Position numbers and translations under genes: made by a program. A DNA stretch of 64,000 nt from Paracoccus yibinensis (lineage in GTDB: Bacteria > Pseudomonadota > Alphaproteobacteria > Rhodobacterales > Rhodobacteraceae). The stretch's first letter is position 1; each line of letters starts with the position of its first letter. Shown piece after piece: positions 36,709 through 45,265 of the stretch. Below the pieces are notes generated by a model. The model ran no database searches. It saw only the letters and a program-made list of their open reading frames with translations, and had not been told where the DNA came from. The stretch is taken from positions 1-64,000 of the forward strand of contig NZ_JAVCWH010000001.1 of assembly GCF_030846195.1 (NCBI RefSeq), written 5' to 3'.

Positions 36709-36910
36709 GCAAAAAAGGGAAATTGTCGTCCCTTCCCTGCATCTTTCCGAATATGACCGGCCTCGTCCGGCTGGCGCAGGACAGGGATTTTTCCCCTGCC
36801 TGCTGATGTGGAACGCCGTCCTCCGGCATCGCCCCTGAACGCCGGGGTCCGTTCCTTGGCAAGCCCGCAGCCTGTTGTTAACTCATGCCGGCAAACAGGA
36901 AAGTCGGCCC

Positions 36911-38008
36911 ATGACCCTTGCCATTTCGCATCTTGCCCGGCGCTTCGGCGCGACCCAGGTTCTGCGCGGCATCGACCTGCAGGTGCGGCAGGGGGAACTG
37001 ATCGCGTTGCTGGGTCCATCAGGGTCGGGCAAGACGACGCTGCTGCGCATCATTGCGGGACTGGACTGGCCCGATGCAGGGGCGCTGTCCTTCGACGGCA
37101 GCGACTGGCTGGCGAAATCCGCCGCCGAACGCCGCATCGGCTTTGTCTTCCAGCATTATGCGCTGTTTCCGCACATGACGGTGCGCGACAATATCGCCTT
37201 TGGCCTGTCGGTCCTGCCCCGCGCCGATCGCCCTGGCAAGGCGCAGATCGCCGCCACCGTGGACCGGCTGCTGGCCTTTCTGCAGATCGGCGGATTGGCC
37301 GACCGCTATCCGGCGGAACTGTCAGGCGGACAGCGCCAACGCGTCGCCTTGGGCCGGGCCATGGCGATCGAGCCACGCGTCCTGTTGCTGGACGAACCTT
37401 TCGGCGCGCTTGACGCCCAGGTCCGCCGCGACCTGCGCCGCTGGCTGCGCGGCGTCCACGACAGCACGGGCACGACCACCGTCTTCGTCACCCACGACCA
37501 GGAGGAAGCGTTCGAGCTGGCCGACCGCGTGGTCGTGATGAACGGCGGCGTCATCGAGCAGATCGGCAAGCCGGATGAAATCTATGACCACCCCGCCACG
37601 CCCTTCGTGGCCCGCTTCCTGGGCCTGACCGTTGAACTGCCCGTGACGATGCGCGCGGGCCGCGCACATGCGGCGGGCCTGGATCTGACCGTCCTGCCCC
37701 GTCGCGCCATTCCCGACGGCCCCGCCACGCTGTTCCTTCGGCCTGCCGACATCCTGCCCGTCCCCGATCCCGAAGCGCCCTTCCGCGTGACCGAGATGGC
37801 GACGACCGGCGCCCTTCTGCGGATCGTGGCCGAGGACGACACAGGCTGCCGGATCGAATCCGAGGTGCCGCGCCGTGACGGCCGCGACCTGCGCCAGGGT
37901 CAGCCCGTCGGGTTGCGTGCCGTTGCGGGCCAGATCTTTCCCGGCAGCGGACAACAGCCCGCCCAGCCCATCCACACCCCGAAGACCCTCAAGGAGGCCC
38001 GCCCGTGA
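36911..38008 (+). CDS. cysA: Sulfate/thiosulfate ABC transporter ATP-binding protein
   Basis: A 365-residue ATPase. Walker A GPSGSGKTT (about 38-46), signature LSGGQRQR, Walker B VLLLDEPFGALD and the H-loop THDQEEAFEL are complete. A C-terminal regulatory domain follows (about 245-360). Together with sbp, cysT and cysW it energises sulfate uptake. The start is ATG 36911; an upstream in-frame ATG at 36875 lacks support. Its TGA overlaps the sbp GTG. Confidence 0.92.
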   Translation: MTLAISHLARRFGATQVLRGIDLQVRQGELIALLGPSGSGKTTLLRIIAGLDWPDAGALSFDGSDWLAKSAAERRIGFVFQHYALFPHMTVRDNIAFGLSVLPRADRPGKAQIAATVDRLLAFLQIGGLADRYPAELSGGQRQRVALGRAMAIEPRVLLLDEPFGALDAQVRRDLRRWLRGVHDSTGTTTVFVTHDQEEAFELADRVVVMNGGVIEQIGKPDEIYDHPATPFVARFLGLTVELPVTMRAGRAHAAGLDLTVLPRRAIPDGPATLFLRPADILPVPDPEAPFRVTEMATTGALLRIVAEDDTGCRIESEVPRRDGRDLRQGQPVGLRAVAGQIFPGSGQQPAQPIHTPKTLKEARP

Positions 38009-39000
38009 AGACCCGCCTGACCACCGCCCTTGCCCTTGTGCTGGGTCTCGCCAGCCCTGTTGCCGCGCAGGACGCGATCCTGAACGTGTCCTATGACATC
38101 GCACGCGAGTTGTTTGCCGAATTGAACCCGGTCTTCGCCGAGAAGTGGCAGGCCGAAACCGGTCGCAGCGTATCCATCGACCAGTCGCATGGCGGATCGT
38201 CGAAACAGGCCCGTGCCATCCTGGAAGGCCTGCCCGCCGATGTCGTGACCTTCAACCAGGTGACCGACATCGACGTTCTGGCCGAAGGCGGCATGGTCGA
38301 TGAAAACTGGCGCGAGGCATTTCCGAACCAGGCTTCGCCCTACTACTCGTTGCCCGCCTTCCTGGTGCGCGAAGGCAACCCGAAGAACATCGACGACTGG
38401 GACGACCTGGCGGCCGAAGGCGTCCAGGTGATCTTCCCCAACCCCAAGACCAGCGGCAACGCGCGCTATACCTATCTGGCGGCCTATGCCTATGGGCTTG
38501 AGAAGAACAACGGCGACCACGCCGCAGCGCAGGAGTTCGTTCGGAAGATCTTTGCCAATGTGCCGGTTTTCGACCAGGGCGGACGCGCCGCGACCACGAC
38601 CTTTGCCGAACGCGGCCTGGGCGACGTCCTGATCACCTTCGAGGCCGAAACCGGCGGCATCGCCCGCCAATATGCCGATGCGAAACTGGAACGCGTCACG
38701 CCCTCTCTGTCGGTGCTGGCAGAATTCCCGGTCGCGGTCGTGACCGAGAACGCCGAGGACAAGGGAACGGCCGACGTGTCGAAGGCGTATCTGGACTTCC
38801 TCTATTCCCCCGAGGCCCAGCGGATCCTGGCAAAGAACTTCAATCGCGTTCATGACGAGGCGATCACCGCCGAATTCGCCGCGAACTTTCCCGACGTGAA
38901 GCTGGTCACGGTCGAGGAGGTCTTCGGCGGCTGGGACAAGGTCCAGGAAGAACACTTCGCCGAAGGCGGGATCCTCGATTCAGTCTTTGTGAACCAATGA
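38005..39000 (+). CDS. sbp: Sulfate ABC transporter substrate-binding protein
   Basis: A 331-residue periplasmic protein starting at GTG 38005, within the cysA stop (GTGA) and 9 bases after AAGGAGG. The signal peptide is 1-22 (VAAQ-D). Family motifs include NVSYDIARELF, SIDQSHGGSSKQAR, and NPKTSGNARYTYLAA, which bind the sulfate oxygens. Sbp and CysP (thiosulfate) cannot be separated by eye. Its stop overlaps the cysT start. Confidence 0.92.
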   Translation: MKTRLTTALALVLGLASPVAAQDAILNVSYDIARELFAELNPVFAEKWQAETGRSVSIDQSHGGSSKQARAILEGLPADVVTFNQVTDIDVLAEGGMVDENWREAFPNQASPYYSLPAFLVREGNPKNIDDWDDLAAEGVQVIFPNPKTSGNARYTYLAAYAYGLEKNNGDHAAAQEFVRKIFANVPVFDQGGRAATTTFAERGLGDVLITFEAETGGIARQYADAKLERVTPSLSVLAEFPVAVVTENAEDKGTADVSKAYLDFLYSPEAQRILAKNFNRVHDEAITAEFAANFPDVKLVTVEEVFGGWDKVQEEHFAEGGILDSVFVNQ

Positions 39001-39854
39001 GCGTTGCGGCGGTCATAGAGGCCCCGACGAGACGGCAGAAGCGGGTGCTTCCGGGCTTTGGCCTGACCATGGGCCTGACGCTGACCTATGTCGGCATCAT
39101 CGTCCTGCTGCCCGTGATTGCCCTGGTGCTGAAGGGGGCCGAGATCGGTCCCCTTCGCTTCTGGGAGATCGTGACCGCCCCCCGCACACTGGCCGCGCTG
39201 CGGCTAACCATCACCGCCGCCGCGCTGGCGACGGCTTTCAATGCGCTCTACGGCCTGCTGATGGCCTGGGTGCTGGTGCGGTATCGCTTTCCGGGCCGGC
39301 GGCTGCTGGACGCGATGATGGATATTCCCTTTGCCCTTCCGACAGCTGTGGCCGGCCTCGCGCTGACCGCCCTGTTTTCCGAGAACGGCTGGTATGGCGC
39401 CATCCTGGCACCTGCCGGGATTTCGGTCGTCTACACGATCTGGGGCGTGGCGATCGCGATGGCCTTCACCTCGATCCCATTCGTTGTGCGCACCGTCCAG
39501 CCGATCCTAGAGGATCTGGACGCCAGCCAGGAGGAGGCGGCCCGAACGCTGGGGGCGACGCCCTTCCAGATCTTTTCGCGCGTAATCTTTCCGGCCATCC
39601 TGCCCGCCTATCTGATCGGCACGACGATTGCCTTTGCCCGGTCGCTGGGTGAATTCGGCGCCGTGATCTTCATCGCGGGCAACCTGCCCATGAAGACCGA
39701 GGTCGCCTCGCTTCTGGCCGTGATCCGGCTCGAGGAATATGACTACAACGGAGCGGCGGCCATTGCCCTGACCCTGGTCGCCATCGCACTGGTGCTGCTG
39801 GCCTTGTCGAACTGGCTTCAGGCCCAACTGACGCGGCGGAGGGTTCCGGCATGA
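38997..39854 (+). CDS. cysT: Sulfate ABC transporter permease CysT
   Basis: A 285-residue inner membrane permease with six predicted helices and the EAA loop (EEAARTLGATPFQIFSRVIFP) that docks on CysA. It is coupled by ATGA junctions to sbp upstream and cysW downstream. The N-terminus (up to about 20) is cytoplasmic and basic. Confidence 0.92.
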   Translation: MSVAAVIEAPTRRQKRVLPGFGLTMGLTLTYVGIIVLLPVIALVLKGAEIGPLRFWEIVTAPRTLAALRLTITAAALATAFNALYGLLMAWVLVRYRFPGRRLLDAMMDIPFALPTAVAGLALTALFSENGWYGAILAPAGISVVYTIWGVAIAMAFTSIPFVVRTVQPILEDLDASQEEAARTLGATPFQIFSRVIFPAILPAYLIGTTIAFARSLGEFGAVIFIAGNLPMKTEVASLLAVIRLEEYDYNGAAAIALTLVAIALVLLALSNWLQAQLTRRRVPA

Positions 39855-40684
39855 CGCCCGCAGCCGCCCCCGCAGCCCTGGCCCCGCGCCAGGATCTGCG
39901 CACCGCCAACCTGCTGATCGGCCTGGCCGTCGCACTGACACTGTTCATTGTGGTGGTGCCGCTGGCCTATATCTTCTGGCGCGCGCTGTCCGAAGGGTTT
40001 GCGGTCTTTGCCCAGAATATCATGGCCCCCGACACGCTGCACGCGATCTGGCTGACTACGGTCGTGGCCGTGATCACGCTGCCCATCAACCTTGTCATCG
40101 GCATCAGCGCTGCCTGGCTGATCGCGCGCTTCACCTTTCCGGGCCGCAAGCTGCTGCTGACGATCATCGAACTGCCGTTTTCGATTTCGCCCATCATCGC
40201 CGGGGTGTGCTATCTGCTTCTTTACGGTCGCCAAGGCCTGCTTGGTCCAGCCCTTGCGGCAGGCGACATCAAGATCCTGTTCGCGCTGCCGGGTATCGTT
40301 CTGGTGACGCTGTTCGTCACCAGCCCCTTCGTCGCGCGCGAAGTCCTGCCGCTGATGCAGGCGCAGGGTTCGGAACAGGAACAGGCGGCGCTGACCCTGG
40401 GCGCATCCGGCTGGCAGGTCTTCCGGCGCGTGACGCTGCCCAATATCCGCTGGGCGCTGCTGTACGGGGCTGTGCTGGCCACGGCGCGGGCGGTCGGGGA
40501 ATTCGGCGCGGTGTCGGTGGTGTCGGGGGCGATCCGGGGGCAGACGAACACCCTGCCCTTGCAGATCGAATTGCTGTTCAACGACCTGAACATCGTCGGC
40601 GCCTTTGCAGCGGCATCCACCCTGACGCTGATCGCGCTTGTGGTTCTGGTCCTGAAGACCGTCATCGAGGGCCGGACCCGCTGA
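39851..40684 (+). CDS. cysW: Sulfate ABC transporter permease CysW
   Basis: A 277-residue second permease subunit with six helices and the EAA loop EQAALTLGASGWQVFRRVTLP. CysT and CysW form the heterodimeric channel for sulfate. It is the last gene of the operon. Its stop is one base from the converging dctD stop, with no terminator hairpin between the two genes. Confidence 0.92.
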   Translation: MTPAAAPAALAPRQDLRTANLLIGLAVALTLFIVVVPLAYIFWRALSEGFAVFAQNIMAPDTLHAIWLTTVVAVITLPINLVIGISAAWLIARFTFPGRKLLLTIIELPFSISPIIAGVCYLLLYGRQGLLGPALAAGDIKILFALPGIVLVTLFVTSPFVAREVLPLMQAQGSEQEQAALTLGASGWQVFRRVTLPNIRWALLYGAVLATARAVGEFGAVSVVSGAIRGQTNTLPLQIELLFNDLNIVGAFAAASTLTLIALVVLVLKTVIEGRTR

Positions 40685-42004
40685 TCAGCGGCGGAAATCG
40701 GTGGGCCTGATCCCGTGGCGGGCCAGCTTGTCATAGAAGGTCTTGCGCGGCAATTGCAGCCGCCCCATCGCCGCCGTGGCATTGCCGCCTGAAAGACGCA
40801 GGGCATCGCGGATCAACTCTCTCTCATAGGCGGCGACCAGCTCCGAAAGACCCGGCGGATCGCCCCCGTCCTCCGCGTCGAAGGGGGTCACGCCGATGGC
40901 TTGGCTTTCGGCAAAACCGCGCAGTTCCGGCAGATTGCCGGGCCAGCCATGCCCCGACAGCCGCGCCTTGACCGCCCCGGTCATTTCGGGTGCAGGCCGA
41001 TCCAGCCGCGCGCAGGCCGCCAGAAGGAAATGCCGGTAAAGCGCCGGGATATCCTCGCGGCGCTCCGCCAAGGGCGGGACCGGCAGGACGGTGCCCGAGA
41101 GGCGATAGAACAGGCGCGCATCGAACGGCCCTTCCGCCAGGCGCGCCGGGTCGGCCGTGGTCGAGGCCAGAAGCTGCACATCCATTGCACGAGGGGCCGC
41201 GGCGCCTGCGGGCCAAAACTCGCCCGCTTCAAGGATCGCGGCCAGCCGCGCCTGCATTGGGGGCGTCAAGGCATCCACGCGGTCCAGAAACAGCACGCCG
41301 CGCTGCGCCCGTTCCAGTTGCCCGGCCTGCCGGGTGCCGCGCGGTCCCGGGGCATCGCTGCCCAAAAGGTCGGCATCAAACCTGGCCTCGTCCACCGCAT
41401 CACAGGCCAGATGGACAAAGGCGCGGGCGCGGCGCGGGCCCTGGCGGTGGATCGCGCGGGCGACCGTCAGCTTGCCCACACCCTGCGGGCCGGTCAGAAG
41501 CACGCTGCCCTCGGCGACGGCCACGCGGTCCAGGGCGGCGCGCAGATGGACCATCACCTCGCTGCCGCCCGCAAGTTCGGGAAAGCCGTCCGAGGCGTCA
41601 TGGCTTGCCTGTCGCAACTGGCGGTTTTCAAGGATCAGGGCGCGGGCCGACACCGCCCGGTTCACCGCAGCCAGCAACACATCGCGCGACACGGGCTTGG
41701 TCAGGAAATCATAGGCTCCGGCCTTCAGCGCCGCCACCGCCATGGGCACGTCGCCATGCCCGGTCAGAAGGATCACCGGCAGGTCGGCGTCGATCGCGTG
41801 CAGGCGCTGAAACAGTTGCAGCCCGTCCATGCCGGGCATCCGCACATCGGACAGCACCACGCCCGGATAATCACGCGTCACCCCCTTCAGCGCATCCTCG
41901 GCAAGGCCGAAATCCTCGACCTGCAAACCCGCCATCTGCAAGGTCTGAACCTGTGCCGCGCGCAGGTCTTCGTCGTCATCCACCAGGCGCACCAGTCCGG
42001 TCAT
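40685..42004 (-). CDS. dctD: DctD-like response regulator with degenerate AAA+ domain
   Basis: A 439-residue regulator of C4-dicarboxylate transport. The receiver domain is intact (Asp10/Asp11, phospho-acceptor Asp53, Thr81, Lys103). The central domain is altered: Walker A reads GPQGVGK, the loop that normally holds GAFTGA (about 214-225) reads GSDAPGPRGTRQ, and Walker B reads LFLDRVDAL, with Arg in place of the catalytic Glu. A Fis-type HTH closes the protein (about 400-435). It cannot be a normal sigma-54 activator. It is coupled to dctB by an ATGA overlap. Confidence 0.88.
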   Translation of the reverse strand: MTGLVRLVDDDEDLRAAQVQTLQMAGLQVEDFGLAEDALKGVTRDYPGVVLSDVRMPGMDGLQLFQRLHAIDADLPVILLTGHGDVPMAVAALKAGAYDFLTKPVSRDVLLAAVNRAVSARALILENRQLRQASHDASDGFPELAGGSEVMVHLRAALDRVAVAEGSVLLTGPQGVGKLTVARAIHRQGPRRARAFVHLACDAVDEARFDADLLGSDAPGPRGTRQAGQLERAQRGVLFLDRVDALTPPMQARLAAILEAGEFWPAGAAAPRAMDVQLLASTTADPARLAEGPFDARLFYRLSGTVLPVPPLAERREDIPALYRHFLLAACARLDRPAPEMTGAVKARLSGHGWPGNLPELRGFAESQAIGVTPFDAEDGGDPPGLSELVAAYERELIRDALRLSGGNATAAMGRLQLPRKTFYDKLARHGIRPTDFRR

Positions 42005-43680
42005 GCCGCTTTCCTCAGGGTCAGGCGGAAGGTCGCGCCCTGGCCCGGCACCGGCGCGTCGGCGATCAGATCACCGCCCAGGTCGCGCGCGATGTCGCGG
42101 GAAATCACCAGCCCCAGCCCCAGCCCCTGGGCCTTGCTGGTGGCAAAGGGGGCGAAAAGCTGCGCGCTCATCTGTGGCGAAAGGCCGGGGCCGTTGTCCG
42201 AAACCGTCAGCGTGACATGATCCCTTTCCTCCTCGACCCCGATGCTGATCCAGGGGTCGGAACAGCCTTCCTGCGCCTCGAAGGCGTTCGCCAGCAGGTT
42301 GACAAGGATCTGTTCCACCCGCACCCGCTCGCCCAGGACAGCCAGCCTTTCGGGAATGGCGGGAAGCCGCACCGGCGTGTCGCCCGCCTTGCGGCGGCTT
42401 GTGGTCAGCATCAGCGAGGCGTCGATCGCCGAGCGCAGGGGAACGGCGCCTACTTCTCCGGTGGCCTTGCGGGCAAAGCCGCGAAGCTGGTCGGTAATCT
42501 GGCCGATCCGGTCCGTCATGCGCGCAATGCGGGCAAGGTTGTCGCCCGCCGGGCCGTCCGGCAGCATCGCCTGCCCGTTTTCGGCCAGCAGGCGGATCGT
42601 GGCCAGGGGCTGGTTGATCTCGTGCGCGACGCCTGCGGTGATCTGCCCCATCGTCGCCAGCTTGTTGGCCTGCACCAGATCTGCCTGCATCTGCGACAAG
42701 CGTTGCTGGGCCAACTGGCGTTCGCGCATCTCCTCGGACAGGTCGCGGGTGCGTTCGGCCACGGCACGTTCCAGTTCCGCGCGATGGTTGCGGTCGGCGC
42801 GGGCCTTGCGGACAGCGCGAAGGCGGGCGCGGCGGGCCTGGTTCGCAAACCCCATCAGCAGCAGGGTTGCCAGCCCTGCGGCGCCCGCGGCATAGGCAGC
42901 CGTCTGGCGGGCCTCTCGGGTCGGCACATGCATTGCCAGCGTCCATCCCGTTCCCCGCACCGGAAGGGTGATCGCCAGGCTGTCGGGCACGGCGGGAGGC
43001 GTGGCGGCGAACCGAAGACGCGCATCGGTGGTGATGATGACGCGGCCGTCGGCCTCGGTCACATGGGTGGCGTTTGGGCTGCGCGCCCAGGCCGCCTCCA
43101 ACCTGTCGAATTCCATCTTGACAACCACGACCCCAAGAAGCGTCGCGCCGTCCCGCACGTCATGGGACAGATACAAGCCCGGCTGGCCGCTGACGGTGCC
43201 AAGGGCAAATTCCATGGCCGTGCCCTGGATCAGCGCCTGCTGGAAGTAGCTGCGGAAGCTGTAGTCATGGCCCAGGAAGCTGTCCGGCCTGTTCCAGTTC
43301 GACGCGGCGATGGTGCGCCCGGTGTCTTCCATCAGATACAGGACCGAACTCTGCGTCTCCTCCCGCAAACGCTCCAGTTTGGCGGACACCGCGTCGCTTT
43401 CGTCGAACTCGCGGCGAAGCGCGGCCTTGACCATCGCGTCGTCCGCCAGGATCGCCACCACGGCCCGCTGCCTGTCCAGAATGCTTTCCAGCGTGAGCGC
43501 ACGGGACTGCGCAGCGGCAAGCCCTTCGGCGCGCAGATCCTCCAAGGCCCCGGCCCGGATCGCCCAGAAGGTCGCGGCGGGAACCAGCACCAGAAAGGCC
43601 ACAGCCAGCAGGACCGCCAACCATCCCGCGGCACGCGGCAAGGCCGGCGAATCGCTGGCAATGGACGATCTATGCTGCAT
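42001..43680 (-). CDS. dctB: C4-dicarboxylate sensor histidine kinase DctB
   Basis: A 559-residue kinase starting at ATG 43680. It has two membrane helices (about 18-43 and 285-305) around a periplasmic double-PAS sensor, with ligand-site-like SNWNRPDSFLGHDYSFR and FALGTVSGQPGLYLS. A long coiled coil, H-box GVAHEINQPL (His phosphorylated), N-box NLLANAFEA and G-boxes DNGPGL and GLGLGL follow. It reads succinate, fumarate or malate and phosphorylates DctD. Confidence 0.92.
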   Translation of the reverse strand: MQHRSSIASDSPALPRAAGWLAVLLAVAFLVLVPAATFWAIRAGALEDLRAEGLAAAQSRALTLESILDRQRAVVAILADDAMVKAALRREFDESDAVSAKLERLREETQSSVLYLMEDTGRTIAASNWNRPDSFLGHDYSFRSYFQQALIQGTAMEFALGTVSGQPGLYLSHDVRDGATLLGVVVVKMEFDRLEAAWARSPNATHVTEADGRVIITTDARLRFAATPPAVPDSLAITLPVRGTGWTLAMHVPTREARQTAAYAAGAAGLATLLLMGFANQARRARLRAVRKARADRNHRAELERAVAERTRDLSEEMRERQLAQQRLSQMQADLVQANKLATMGQITAGVAHEINQPLATIRLLAENGQAMLPDGPAGDNLARIARMTDRIGQITDQLRGFARKATGEVGAVPLRSAIDASLMLTTSRRKAGDTPVRLPAIPERLAVLGERVRVEQILVNLLANAFEAQEGCSDPWISIGVEEERDHVTLTVSDNGPGLSPQMSAQLFAPFATSKAQGLGLGLVISRDIARDLGGDLIADAPVPGQGATFRLTLRKAA

Positions 43681-43739
43681 ATTCCGCACGCCTTCCTGCC
43701 CGGCATGGTGTTTCGGTTCCCACACTAGCAGCTTGGGTT

Positions 43740-43757
43740 TGTGCGGAAAACCACACA
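43740..43757. promoter_or_regulatory. Probable DctD operator upstream of dctA
   Basis: TGTGCGGAAAACCACACA is an imperfect 18-base dyad (7 of 9 pairs). It resembles, from memory, the GTGCGGAAATCCGCAC-type DctD sites of rhizobia. It lies about 85 bases upstream of the proposed dctA -35 box. Confidence 0.45.
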
Positions 43758-43823
43758 TATTTTCCGGGTTCTTTCACAAAAACAGTCATGTTTTCAGCGC
43801 ATTGCAGCCATGCGGCAAGTTTC

Positions 43824-43851
43824 TTGGGCCGACCTGCCCACGTTTTAGAAT
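43824..43851 (+). promoter_or_regulatory. Proposed sigma-70-type promoter of dctA
   Basis: TTGGGC (43824-43829), 16 bases, TAGAAT (43846-43851). Searching the spacer by eye found no TGGCAC-N5-TTGC sigma-54 element. The dctA start is 44 bases downstream. Confidence 0.45.
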
Positions 43852-43894
43852 GGGCATCATCCAATAGACATCCAAGGCAGGAGGAGGCCTTTCC

Positions 43895-45265
43895 ATGCAG
43901 CTGGACACTTCCGCGCATCCCGTGGCCCACGAAAAGCGGCCGTTCTATCGTCATCTCTATTTCCAGGTCATCATCGCCATCGTGGCTGGCGCGCTGCTGG
44001 GTCATTTCTATCCCGAAACCGGCGAGGCGCTGAAGCCGCTTGGCGACGCCTTCATCAAGCTGGTCAAGATGATCATCGCGCCGGTGATCTTCCTGACCAT
44101 CGTGACCGGGCTTGCGGGGATGGGATCGCTGCGCGGCGTGGGTTCGGTCGTGGGCAAGGCCTTCGCCTATTTCCTGACCTTCTCGACGCTTGCCCTGATC
44201 GTGGGGCTGATCGTGGCCAACCTCATCCAGCCGGGTTCGGGGATGAACATCGACCCGGCCAGCCTCGATTCAGGGGCGGTGGCGACCTATACCGAAAAGG
44301 CGCATGAAACGTCCCTGACCGGTTTCGTCATGGACATCATCCCGACGACGCTGGTGTCGGCCTTTGTCGAAGGCAACATCCTGCAGGTGCTGTTCGTCGC
44401 CATCCTGTTCGGCATCGGCCTGATCCTGGTCGGCGACAAGGGCAAGCCCGTGCTGAACATCCTGGAATCGGCCAGCTTCGCGATCTTCCGCGTGGTGGAC
44501 ATCCTGATGAAGGCCGCGCCCATCGGCGCCTTCGGGGCCTTCGCCTTCACCATCGGCAAATACGGTATCGCGTCGATCATGAACCTGGCGATGCTGGTGG
44601 GCACGTTCTACCTGACCTCGGCCATGTTCGTGATCGTGATCCTGGGTGCCGTCTGCCTGGCGAACGGCTTTTCGATCTTCAAGCTGATCTCGTATCTCAA
44701 GGCGGAAATCCTGCTGGTGCTGGGCACCTCGTCGTCGGAATCCGCGCTGCCTTCGCTGATGGAGAAGATGGAGAAGGCAGGCTGCTCGCGTCCTGTGGTG
44801 GGACTGGTCGTGCCGACCGGCTACAGCTTCAACCTGGACGGCACCAACATCTACATGACGCTGGCCGCGCTGTTCATCGCACAGGCCACCAACACCGACC
44901 TGACGCTGCAACAGCAGGTGCTGCTGCTGCTGGTCGCGATGCTGTCGTCCAAGGGCGCGGCGGGCGTCACCGGCGCGGGCTTCATCACCCTGGCCGCCAC
45001 GTTGTCGGTCGTGCCGACCGTTCCGGTCGCCGGCATGGCGCTGATCCTGGGCGTGGACCGCTTCATGTCGGAATGCCGGTCGATCACCAACTTCATCGGC
45101 AACGCCGTCGCCACCGTCGTCGTCAGCCGCTGGCAAGGTGCGCTTGACCGCGAGAAGTTCGACGCCGTGATGGGCGGGCGCGAACCCGACGGCCTGGCCG
45201 CCCCCGTCACCGGGCTGGCCCTGCATCCCGCCGGGCTGCAGTTGGGCGAACGCAGCGCCGACTGA
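43895..45265 (+). CDS. dctA: C4-dicarboxylate:cation symporter DctA
   Basis: A 456-residue inner membrane carrier importing succinate, fumarate and malate with cations. The start follows a very strong AGGAGGAGG. The glutamate/dicarboxylate (DAACS) signatures are present: the serine-rich loop [16 protein letters not shown] (about 278-293), the motif [11 protein letters not shown], and [10 protein letters not shown]. Helices 1-8 and two re-entrant loops fit the family. It is divergent from dctB/dctD and followed by a strong terminator. Confidence 0.95.

Follow-up and report, generated by a model that had tools for sequence, protein, structure and literature searches.

The window analysed here is a stretch of 64,000 nucleotides of Paracoccus yibinensis DNA (contig NZ_JAVCWH010000001.1, positions 1 to 64,000 of the forward strand), which carries a divergent dctA / dctBD cassette composed of the following genes:

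40685..42004, minus strand: dctD-like response regulator gene, 439 aa
42001..43680, minus strand: dctB-like sensor kinase gene with HisKA and HATPase_c domains; presumed start ATG at 43680, the longest ORF reaching 43758
43895..45265, plus strand: dctA, C4-dicarboxylate transporter (NCBIfam DctA 678 bits, cut-off 513)

The window protein is a true DctD of this cassette type. The dctA gene is divergent from dctBD in the window, in the genus loci, and in rhizobia, and dctD, dctB, and dctA are adjacent in 40 of the 41 genus loci, the remaining locus being cut by a contig end. The part of the dctB ORF lying upstream of 43680 overlaps the operators described below and is alignable in few orthologues. 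The best plasmid-record matches belong to Paracoccus, with 78% identity to P. marcusii. On its other side dctD is directly adjoined by a sulfate-type ABC transporter gene set (window 36875-40684).

DctD is a textbook sigma-54 activator. According to the domain search the window protein consists of a REC domain (residues ~5-118, detected as PF00072), an AAA+ domain (PF00158, ~143-368), and a Fis-type HTH (393-429), in which the following functional elements are read:

41846..41848, minus strand: Asp53 phospho-acceptor codon, intact (12/12 in the window clade, 29/29 in the other genus orthologues)
41471..41491, minus strand: Walker A GPQGVGK, residues 172-178, Lys178 kept
41327..41362, minus strand: GSDAPGPRGTRQ, residues 215-226, occupying the position of the GAFTGA loop (L1)
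41273..41299, minus strand: Walker B GVLFLDRVD, with Arg242 at the position of the catalytic Glu
41099..41125, minus strand: FDARLFYRL with the arginine fingers; Asp295 stands where the first Arg belongs, and the second, Arg301, is kept
40922..40945, minus strand: sensor II WPGNLPEL, with Pro359 at the position of the Arg

The replaced GAFTGA loop, the Walker A motif, and the Walker B sequence LDRVD had been pointed out in the sequence-only reading, and all of them are found exactly as claimed in ORF 40685-42004, while the losses of arginine finger 1 (D295) and of the sensor II Arg (P359) are additional. The ATPase site is incomplete: the Walker A Lys, the Walker B Asp, and finger 2 are kept, and the Glu, finger 1, and the sensor II Arg are replaced. 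Due to these three replacements ATP hydrolysis by the AAA+ domain has very probably been lost in the window clade, while nucleotide binding may persist in the window protein, where the Walker A Lys is present. The AlphaFold2 model retains the AAA+ fold (mean pLDDT 88.6), with unsure relative placement of the domains because of the pTM of 0.56, and compares with PspF entries at TMt ~0.84 and rmsd ~2.4.

In a search of 125 genomes of the genus 41 DctD orthologues were identified (window counted), the set being bounded by a clear E-value gap between 8e-140 and the next value of 1e-91. They comprise 11 sequences at 82-100% identity (window counted), one partial sequence (G301), and 29 at 56-66%; the window clade, designated W, thus includes 12 sequences with the window and the partial one, and the other 29 genus orthologues are designated P. 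Residues Asp53, Thr81, and Lys103 are intact in all 41 (12/12 in W). In W the Walker B Glu is replaced by Arg and finger 1 by Asp in 12/12, sensor II reads Pro in 11/11 readable sequences, and the Walker A Lys has changed to Arg in 4/12. In P the Walker A Lys is kept in 29/29, the Walker B Glu in 16/29, finger 1 in 23/29, and the sensor II Arg in 26/29. The AAA+ domain has therefore changed in a graded manner inside one genus, as the Walker B Glu, kept in 16/29 of P and lost in 12/12 of W, makes plain. The GAFTGA-like motif, in contrast, was found by the motif test in none of these sequences (0/12 W and 0/29 P) and in 0/8 sequences of set S, versus 15/16 of set T. A motor change outside the window clade is seen in the Thioclava cassette dctD (L262), where Walker B reads LNG for LDE.

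The altered AAA domain is maintained by purifying selection, as indicated by low dN/dS values of 0.07, 0.22, 0.13, 0.17, 0.12, and 0.20 in six W pairs, one sequence appearing in two of them, and the HTH values are 0.03-0.13 in the five W pairs where dN/dS is defined. Outside W six genus pairs gave AAA-domain values of 0.14-0.18, two others (L140/L146 and L147/L154) gave 0.54 and 0.50, and the pair L135/L136 was too close to be informative. Chance, decay, or sequencing error as the origin of the motor losses is rejected on the dN/dS values together with the 12-member clade.

The sigma-54 gene itself was sought with two rpoN profiles, each of which was positive in 4 of 14 control genomes. Neither PF04552 (0 matches) nor PF04963 (0 matches) was detected in the window genome, a 4,326,931-base assembly rated 100% complete. 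Among the 11 W genomes tested G230 alone has rpoN, and the other 10, two of which are single-contig, are without PF04963. The PF04552 cut-off was exceeded in 18 of the 125 genus genomes and in none of the other 107, and in a family sample 63 of 199 genomes were over the rpoN cut-off. Further, PF00158, which also matches all 14 control genomes, gave 10 matches in the window genome (best of the ten 2.1e-46), and six of these activator-like proteins were read: DctD, the PgtA-like protein, the L003 regulator, NtrX, NtrC, and the AcoR-like protein, named partly by resemblance, the five other than DctD being encoded at loci L002, L003, L004, L005, and L008. GAFTGA is absent in all six.

The upstream regions of dctA were compared in 40 genus loci, window included, one contig-end-cut locus being dropped from the 41; owing to their relatedness these loci do not amount to 40 independent cases. 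The following elements were located in the window:

43709..43726, plus strand: UAS1, upstream DctD operator TGTTTCGGTTCCCACACT, left half-site degenerate in the window clade
43740..43757, plus strand: UAS2, DctD operator TGTGCGGAAAACCACACA, 16/18 to the R. meliloti DctD consensus
43797..43814, plus strand: third conserved inverted repeat GCGCATTGCAGCCATGCG at about -52, past the DctD operators and before the -35
43824..43829, plus strand: -35-like TTGGGC, weak, assigned by pattern conservation
43846..43851, plus strand: -10-like TAGAAT, placing the UAS2 centre at -109.5 from the predicted start near 43858

The DctD operator consensus of R. meliloti used here, TGTGCGgaaatCCGCACA, is taken from an excerpt of PMC11077940. 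An operator of at least 13/18 is present in 40/40 genus loci versus a mean of 0.5 in shuffles. The search pattern is matched exactly at UAS2 and nowhere else in the genome, and the genome-wide search for a wider DctD operator regulon yielded one other weak match only, with 2 mismatches. UAS1 lies 31 bp upstream of UAS2 and begins about 28 bp from the presumed dctB start, and 20 other genus loci have, among the sites listed, one of at least 12/18 at its position. The left half of UAS1 reads TGTTTC in the window clade and in some genus loci and TGTGYGG in many genus loci. The third inverted repeat has its exact copy solely here in the genome, and three other sites resemble it with 1-2 mismatches, including a near-copy with 1 mismatch at G000:C22:205193.

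Downstream of these sites the pattern TTG-N3-N15..18-TANN[ACT]T occurs in 28/40 genus loci, nearly always with a spacing of 16 or 17, versus a mean of 1.0 in shuffles. A consensus promoter scan of the dctA upstream region called none, the TTG-TANNAT element being below its thresholds; the putative promoter is thus weak by sequence, and the -35/-10 assignment rests on conservation and spacing. The pattern is absent in 12/40 genus loci, including L126, L132, L134, and L149 of the window clade, and outside the genus one of six S loci shows it, while Thioclava, Sphingomonas parapaucimobilis, and Novosphingobium do not. In 27 of the 28 pattern-bearing loci the UAS2 centre is at -108.5 or -109.5 from the start, which is a predicted one; the exception, L139 (-140.5), arises because its UAS1 scored higher. 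The position of the element relative to the dctA start codon varies more, from -65 to -73.

No core-bearing -24/-12 element with a score of at least 9/12 was found in the 40 genus dctA upstream regions (0/40, best 8), base-composition shuffles giving 2.0/40, and a hidden -24/-12 upstream of dctA is thereby rejected for these loci. Five rhizobial loci chosen from the plasmid matches (S. meliloti 1021, Ensifer adhaerens, Phyllobacterium zundukense, Rhizobium sp., and Shinella sp.) were taken as a control, and all five share the gene order and combine a GAFTGA-bearing DctD whose motor is intact with a -24/-12 scoring 11-12. Each also has the operator, with its centre between -107.5 and -110.5 relative to a sigma-54 start deduced from the -12 element. 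Beyond the 40 genus loci ten GAFTGA-less cassette loci were scored (L012, L013, L016, L018, L020, L038, L262, L263, L264, and P. denitrificans L269), of which L263 is close to L013 and L269 has a DctD identical to that of G224, a member of the 40; the best -24/-12 was at most 8 in nine of them and 9 in L264. In a comparison of 164 loci, which differ in length and many of which are related, a -24/-12 of at least 11 anywhere in the locus was found in 15/43 GAFTGA-positive versus 4/121 GAFTGA-negative loci, and one of at least 10 in 42/43 versus 51/121.

The sequence-only reading had proposed that this DctD controls dctA through sigma-70 RNA polymerase. Control of dctA without sigma-54 is strongly supported by the negative rpoN searches, by the -24/-12 found in 0/40 genus loci versus 5/5 rhizobia, and by the fixed-distance TTG-TANNAT element in 28/40. 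Since the loop and motor residues are lost and sigma-54 was not found in the genome, the ordinary polymerase is very probably used; we infer that the factor involved is sigma-70 itself and that the effect of DctD on dctA is activation, not repression. The whole model, to which we assign a probability of roughly three in four, is that of a phosphorylation-controlled DctD activating housekeeping RNA polymerase with an AAA+ domain that no longer hydrolyses ATP. In this model Asp53 of DctD would be phosphorylated by DctB, the machinery for which is conserved, and the phosphorylated protein would bind the two operators arranged in tandem before dctA (about -110 and -141), whose sites are likewise conserved. 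It would contact the housekeeping polymerase at the -35/-10 of a sigma-70-type promoter, in replacement of sigma-54 at -24/-12. An ATP-driven remodelling step would be missing at the dctA promoter and would be dispensable because the housekeeping polymerase opens DNA unaided, and the AAA+ domain may act as a folded scaffold for either oligomerisation or nucleotide sensing.

An alternative function of the altered protein, which appears unlikely, is that of a repressor of dctBD and perhaps dctA, whose block would be relieved by DctB signalling with no need for polymerase activation. The position of UAS1 near the presumed dctB start is compatible with this, as binding there could block dctB, and Caulobacter NtrC without GAFTGA represses some promoters, as stated in an excerpt of PMC10274813. 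For dctA, however, the operators do not cover the predicted start but precede it by about 110 and 141 bp, and the rhizobial enhancer register is kept within 1-2 bp, a precision that repression of dctA would not require.

The origin of the loop loss was followed in two quick trees with no bootstrap. In the one built without the loop and motor columns the GAFTGA-less cassette DctDs of Sphingomonadales, Asticcacaulis, Thioclava, and Paracoccus form a group of 44 rows (SH-aLRT 94), which together with the rhizobial DctDs, that of Bosea (L050), and the PgtA-like L002 makes a group of 51 rows (SH-aLRT 97). In the first tree, built with all columns, Asticcacaulis was also the nearest kin of the genus DctD. 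All eight Asticcacaulis/Sphingomonadales-type genomes with a GAFTGA-less DctD that were tested have rpoN (8/8), so the loop loss did not need the loss of rpoN. An alignment of DctD proteins had been proposed earlier as a way of dating this event, and it suggests, with the trees, that the loop was lost before Paracoccus arose, in a lineage whose tested members outside the family still carry rpoN. Most simply, the loop loss would have preceded the rpoN loss, the sigma-54 loop and the -24/-12 having been lost once in the ancestor of the Sphingomonadales/Asticcacaulis/Thioclava/Paracoccus lineage, and the motor residues of the window clade would have been lost later, within Paracoccus.

In a second Rhodobacteraceae DctD branch (L205-L248), which occurs with and without rpoN, the loop reads GAFPGA, GAFAGA, or otherwise and the ATPase site is mostly intact; no dctA was found in the flanks examined. 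By a regular-expression test the FTGA-type motif is present in 3/44 of its members, all from rpoN-positive genomes (3/24 versus 0/20). The descent of the window DctD from this branch was considered and is borne out by neither tree.

With these data the proposal that the loop loss is a mere by-product of rpoN loss can be weighed, and we regard it as quite improbable. It is favoured by the window genome and most of the genus (107/125) being without rpoN and by the family reading, in which the best PF00158 stretch was taken from 20 rpoN-positive and 20 rpoN-negative genomes, the latter from the top of the list. There FTGA is read in 20/20 rpoN-positive genomes versus 0/19 readable rpoN-negative ones, whose loops have Pro in 14 cases, Ala in 3, Asn in 1, and another loop in 1; the twentieth (G146) is stop-broken and reads GAFVGA. 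The rpoN-positive origin of all three FTGA-keeping DctDs of the second branch points in the same direction. Against it, in addition to the 8/8 genomes mentioned, 21 of the 24 second-branch DctDs from rpoN-positive genomes are without the motif, and 13 of the 41 DctD-bearing genus genomes have rpoN over the cut-off, yet GAFTGA occurs in 0/41 of the DctDs. As the DctD loop is usually lost with or without rpoN, tight coupling to present rpoN status is argued against, and rpoN loss as the cause of loop loss is rejected on the 8/8 genomes and on the second branch, 21/24 loop-less despite rpoN. In the genus, where rpoN is patchy, a GAFTGA-bearing activator was seen beside rpoN in one of ten rpoN surroundings (L250 of G270, in the set L249-L258).

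That dctA depends on a different alternative sigma factor, such as an ECF factor or RpoH, seems very doubtful. The -35 is conserved only as TTG and the consensus scan calls no promoter, which would leave room for such a factor; however, the TANNAT -10-like element and the spacing of 16-17 bp resemble those of the housekeeping factor. The relatives without GAFTGA that appear in excerpts of PMC3162934 and PMC10274813 use sigma-70, which also speaks for the housekeeping factor at dctA.

It is most improbable that DctD is a decaying remnant without a regulatory role next to a constitutive dctA promoter since, despite several lost catalytic residues and an orthologue with an in-frame TAA stop (G280, L105), the AAA dN/dS of 0.07-0.22 and HTH dN/dS of 0.03-0.13 in the window clade, the operators in 40/40 loci, and the adjacency of the three genes in 40/41 oppose this.

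Among known systems, a close counterpart of the window cassette is the rhizobial one (Sinorhizobium meliloti and R. leguminosarum), which shares the dctA / dctBD order, the operator, the operator-to-start distance, and the 51-row group, but possesses GAFTGA, an intact ATPase site, and the -24/-12, of which the window version keeps only the Walker A Lys. Among other regulators NtrC of Rhodobacter capsulatus binds tandem sites more than 100 bp upstream. According to the excerpt of PMC10274813 this GAFTGA-less protein works with sigma-70 polymerase and needs ATP binding, not hydrolysis; it is a different regulator, however, and the window clade has lost motor residues, some members also the Walker A Lys. 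In the same excerpt (PMC10274813) Vibrio cholerae VpsR is described as GAFTGA-less and sigma-70 dependent with no need for either ATP or phosphorylation, and the PDB matches include 7v2b; VpsR binds c-di-GMP (as the PDB entry title states), whereas the window DctD keeps the phospho-receiver residues. Caulobacter NtrC, an alphaproteobacterial case of L1 deletion with sigma-70 promoters, still depends on its Walker A and Walker B residues to grow on ammonium (PMC10274813, excerpt), whereas the window clade lost the Walker B Glu. HupR of R. capsulatus and TyrR and DhaR of E. coli are listed in an excerpt of PMC3162934 as homologues from the activator family whose GAFTGA was lost and whose function depends on sigma-70, but they serve other regulons than the window DctD. 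Francke et al. (PMC3162934) had already observed that Pro is favoured at position 4 in ~110 deviant homologues, and concluded that the homologue of Jannaschia, which is without sigma-54, would work with sigma-70.

The use of sigma-70 by GAFTGA-less activators is therefore already known from R. capsulatus NtrC, HupR, and VpsR. As far as the literature searched shows, the new points are the DctD case itself, the joint disappearance of loop and promoter while the operators stayed in register, and the graded motor loss in one genus; in titles and abstract beginnings among the matches listed, a coverage mostly outside subscription journals, no Paracoccus DctD or GAFTGA-less DctD was described. These features may together represent an in-place switch of sigma factor, in which the operators and the distance of about -110 would have been kept, the loop and the -24/-12 would have vanished together in sigma-54-bearing hosts, and the Paracoccus motor would have been disabled later, giving a distant-site activator without ATP hydrolysis; the odds of this scenario seem to us about even.

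The same cassette thus exists in a sigma-54 version in rhizobia and, stripped of the sigma-54 parts, in Sphingomonadales, Asticcacaulis, Thioclava, and Paracoccus, with the operators shared and the geometry shared in Paracoccus. The two cassette versions and the graded AAA+ series make it testable how an enhancer-bound AAA+ protein talks to the housekeeping polymerase and whether ATP is needed. In the plasmid records such DctDs carry the label 'sigma-54 dependent transcriptional regulator', which is misleading.
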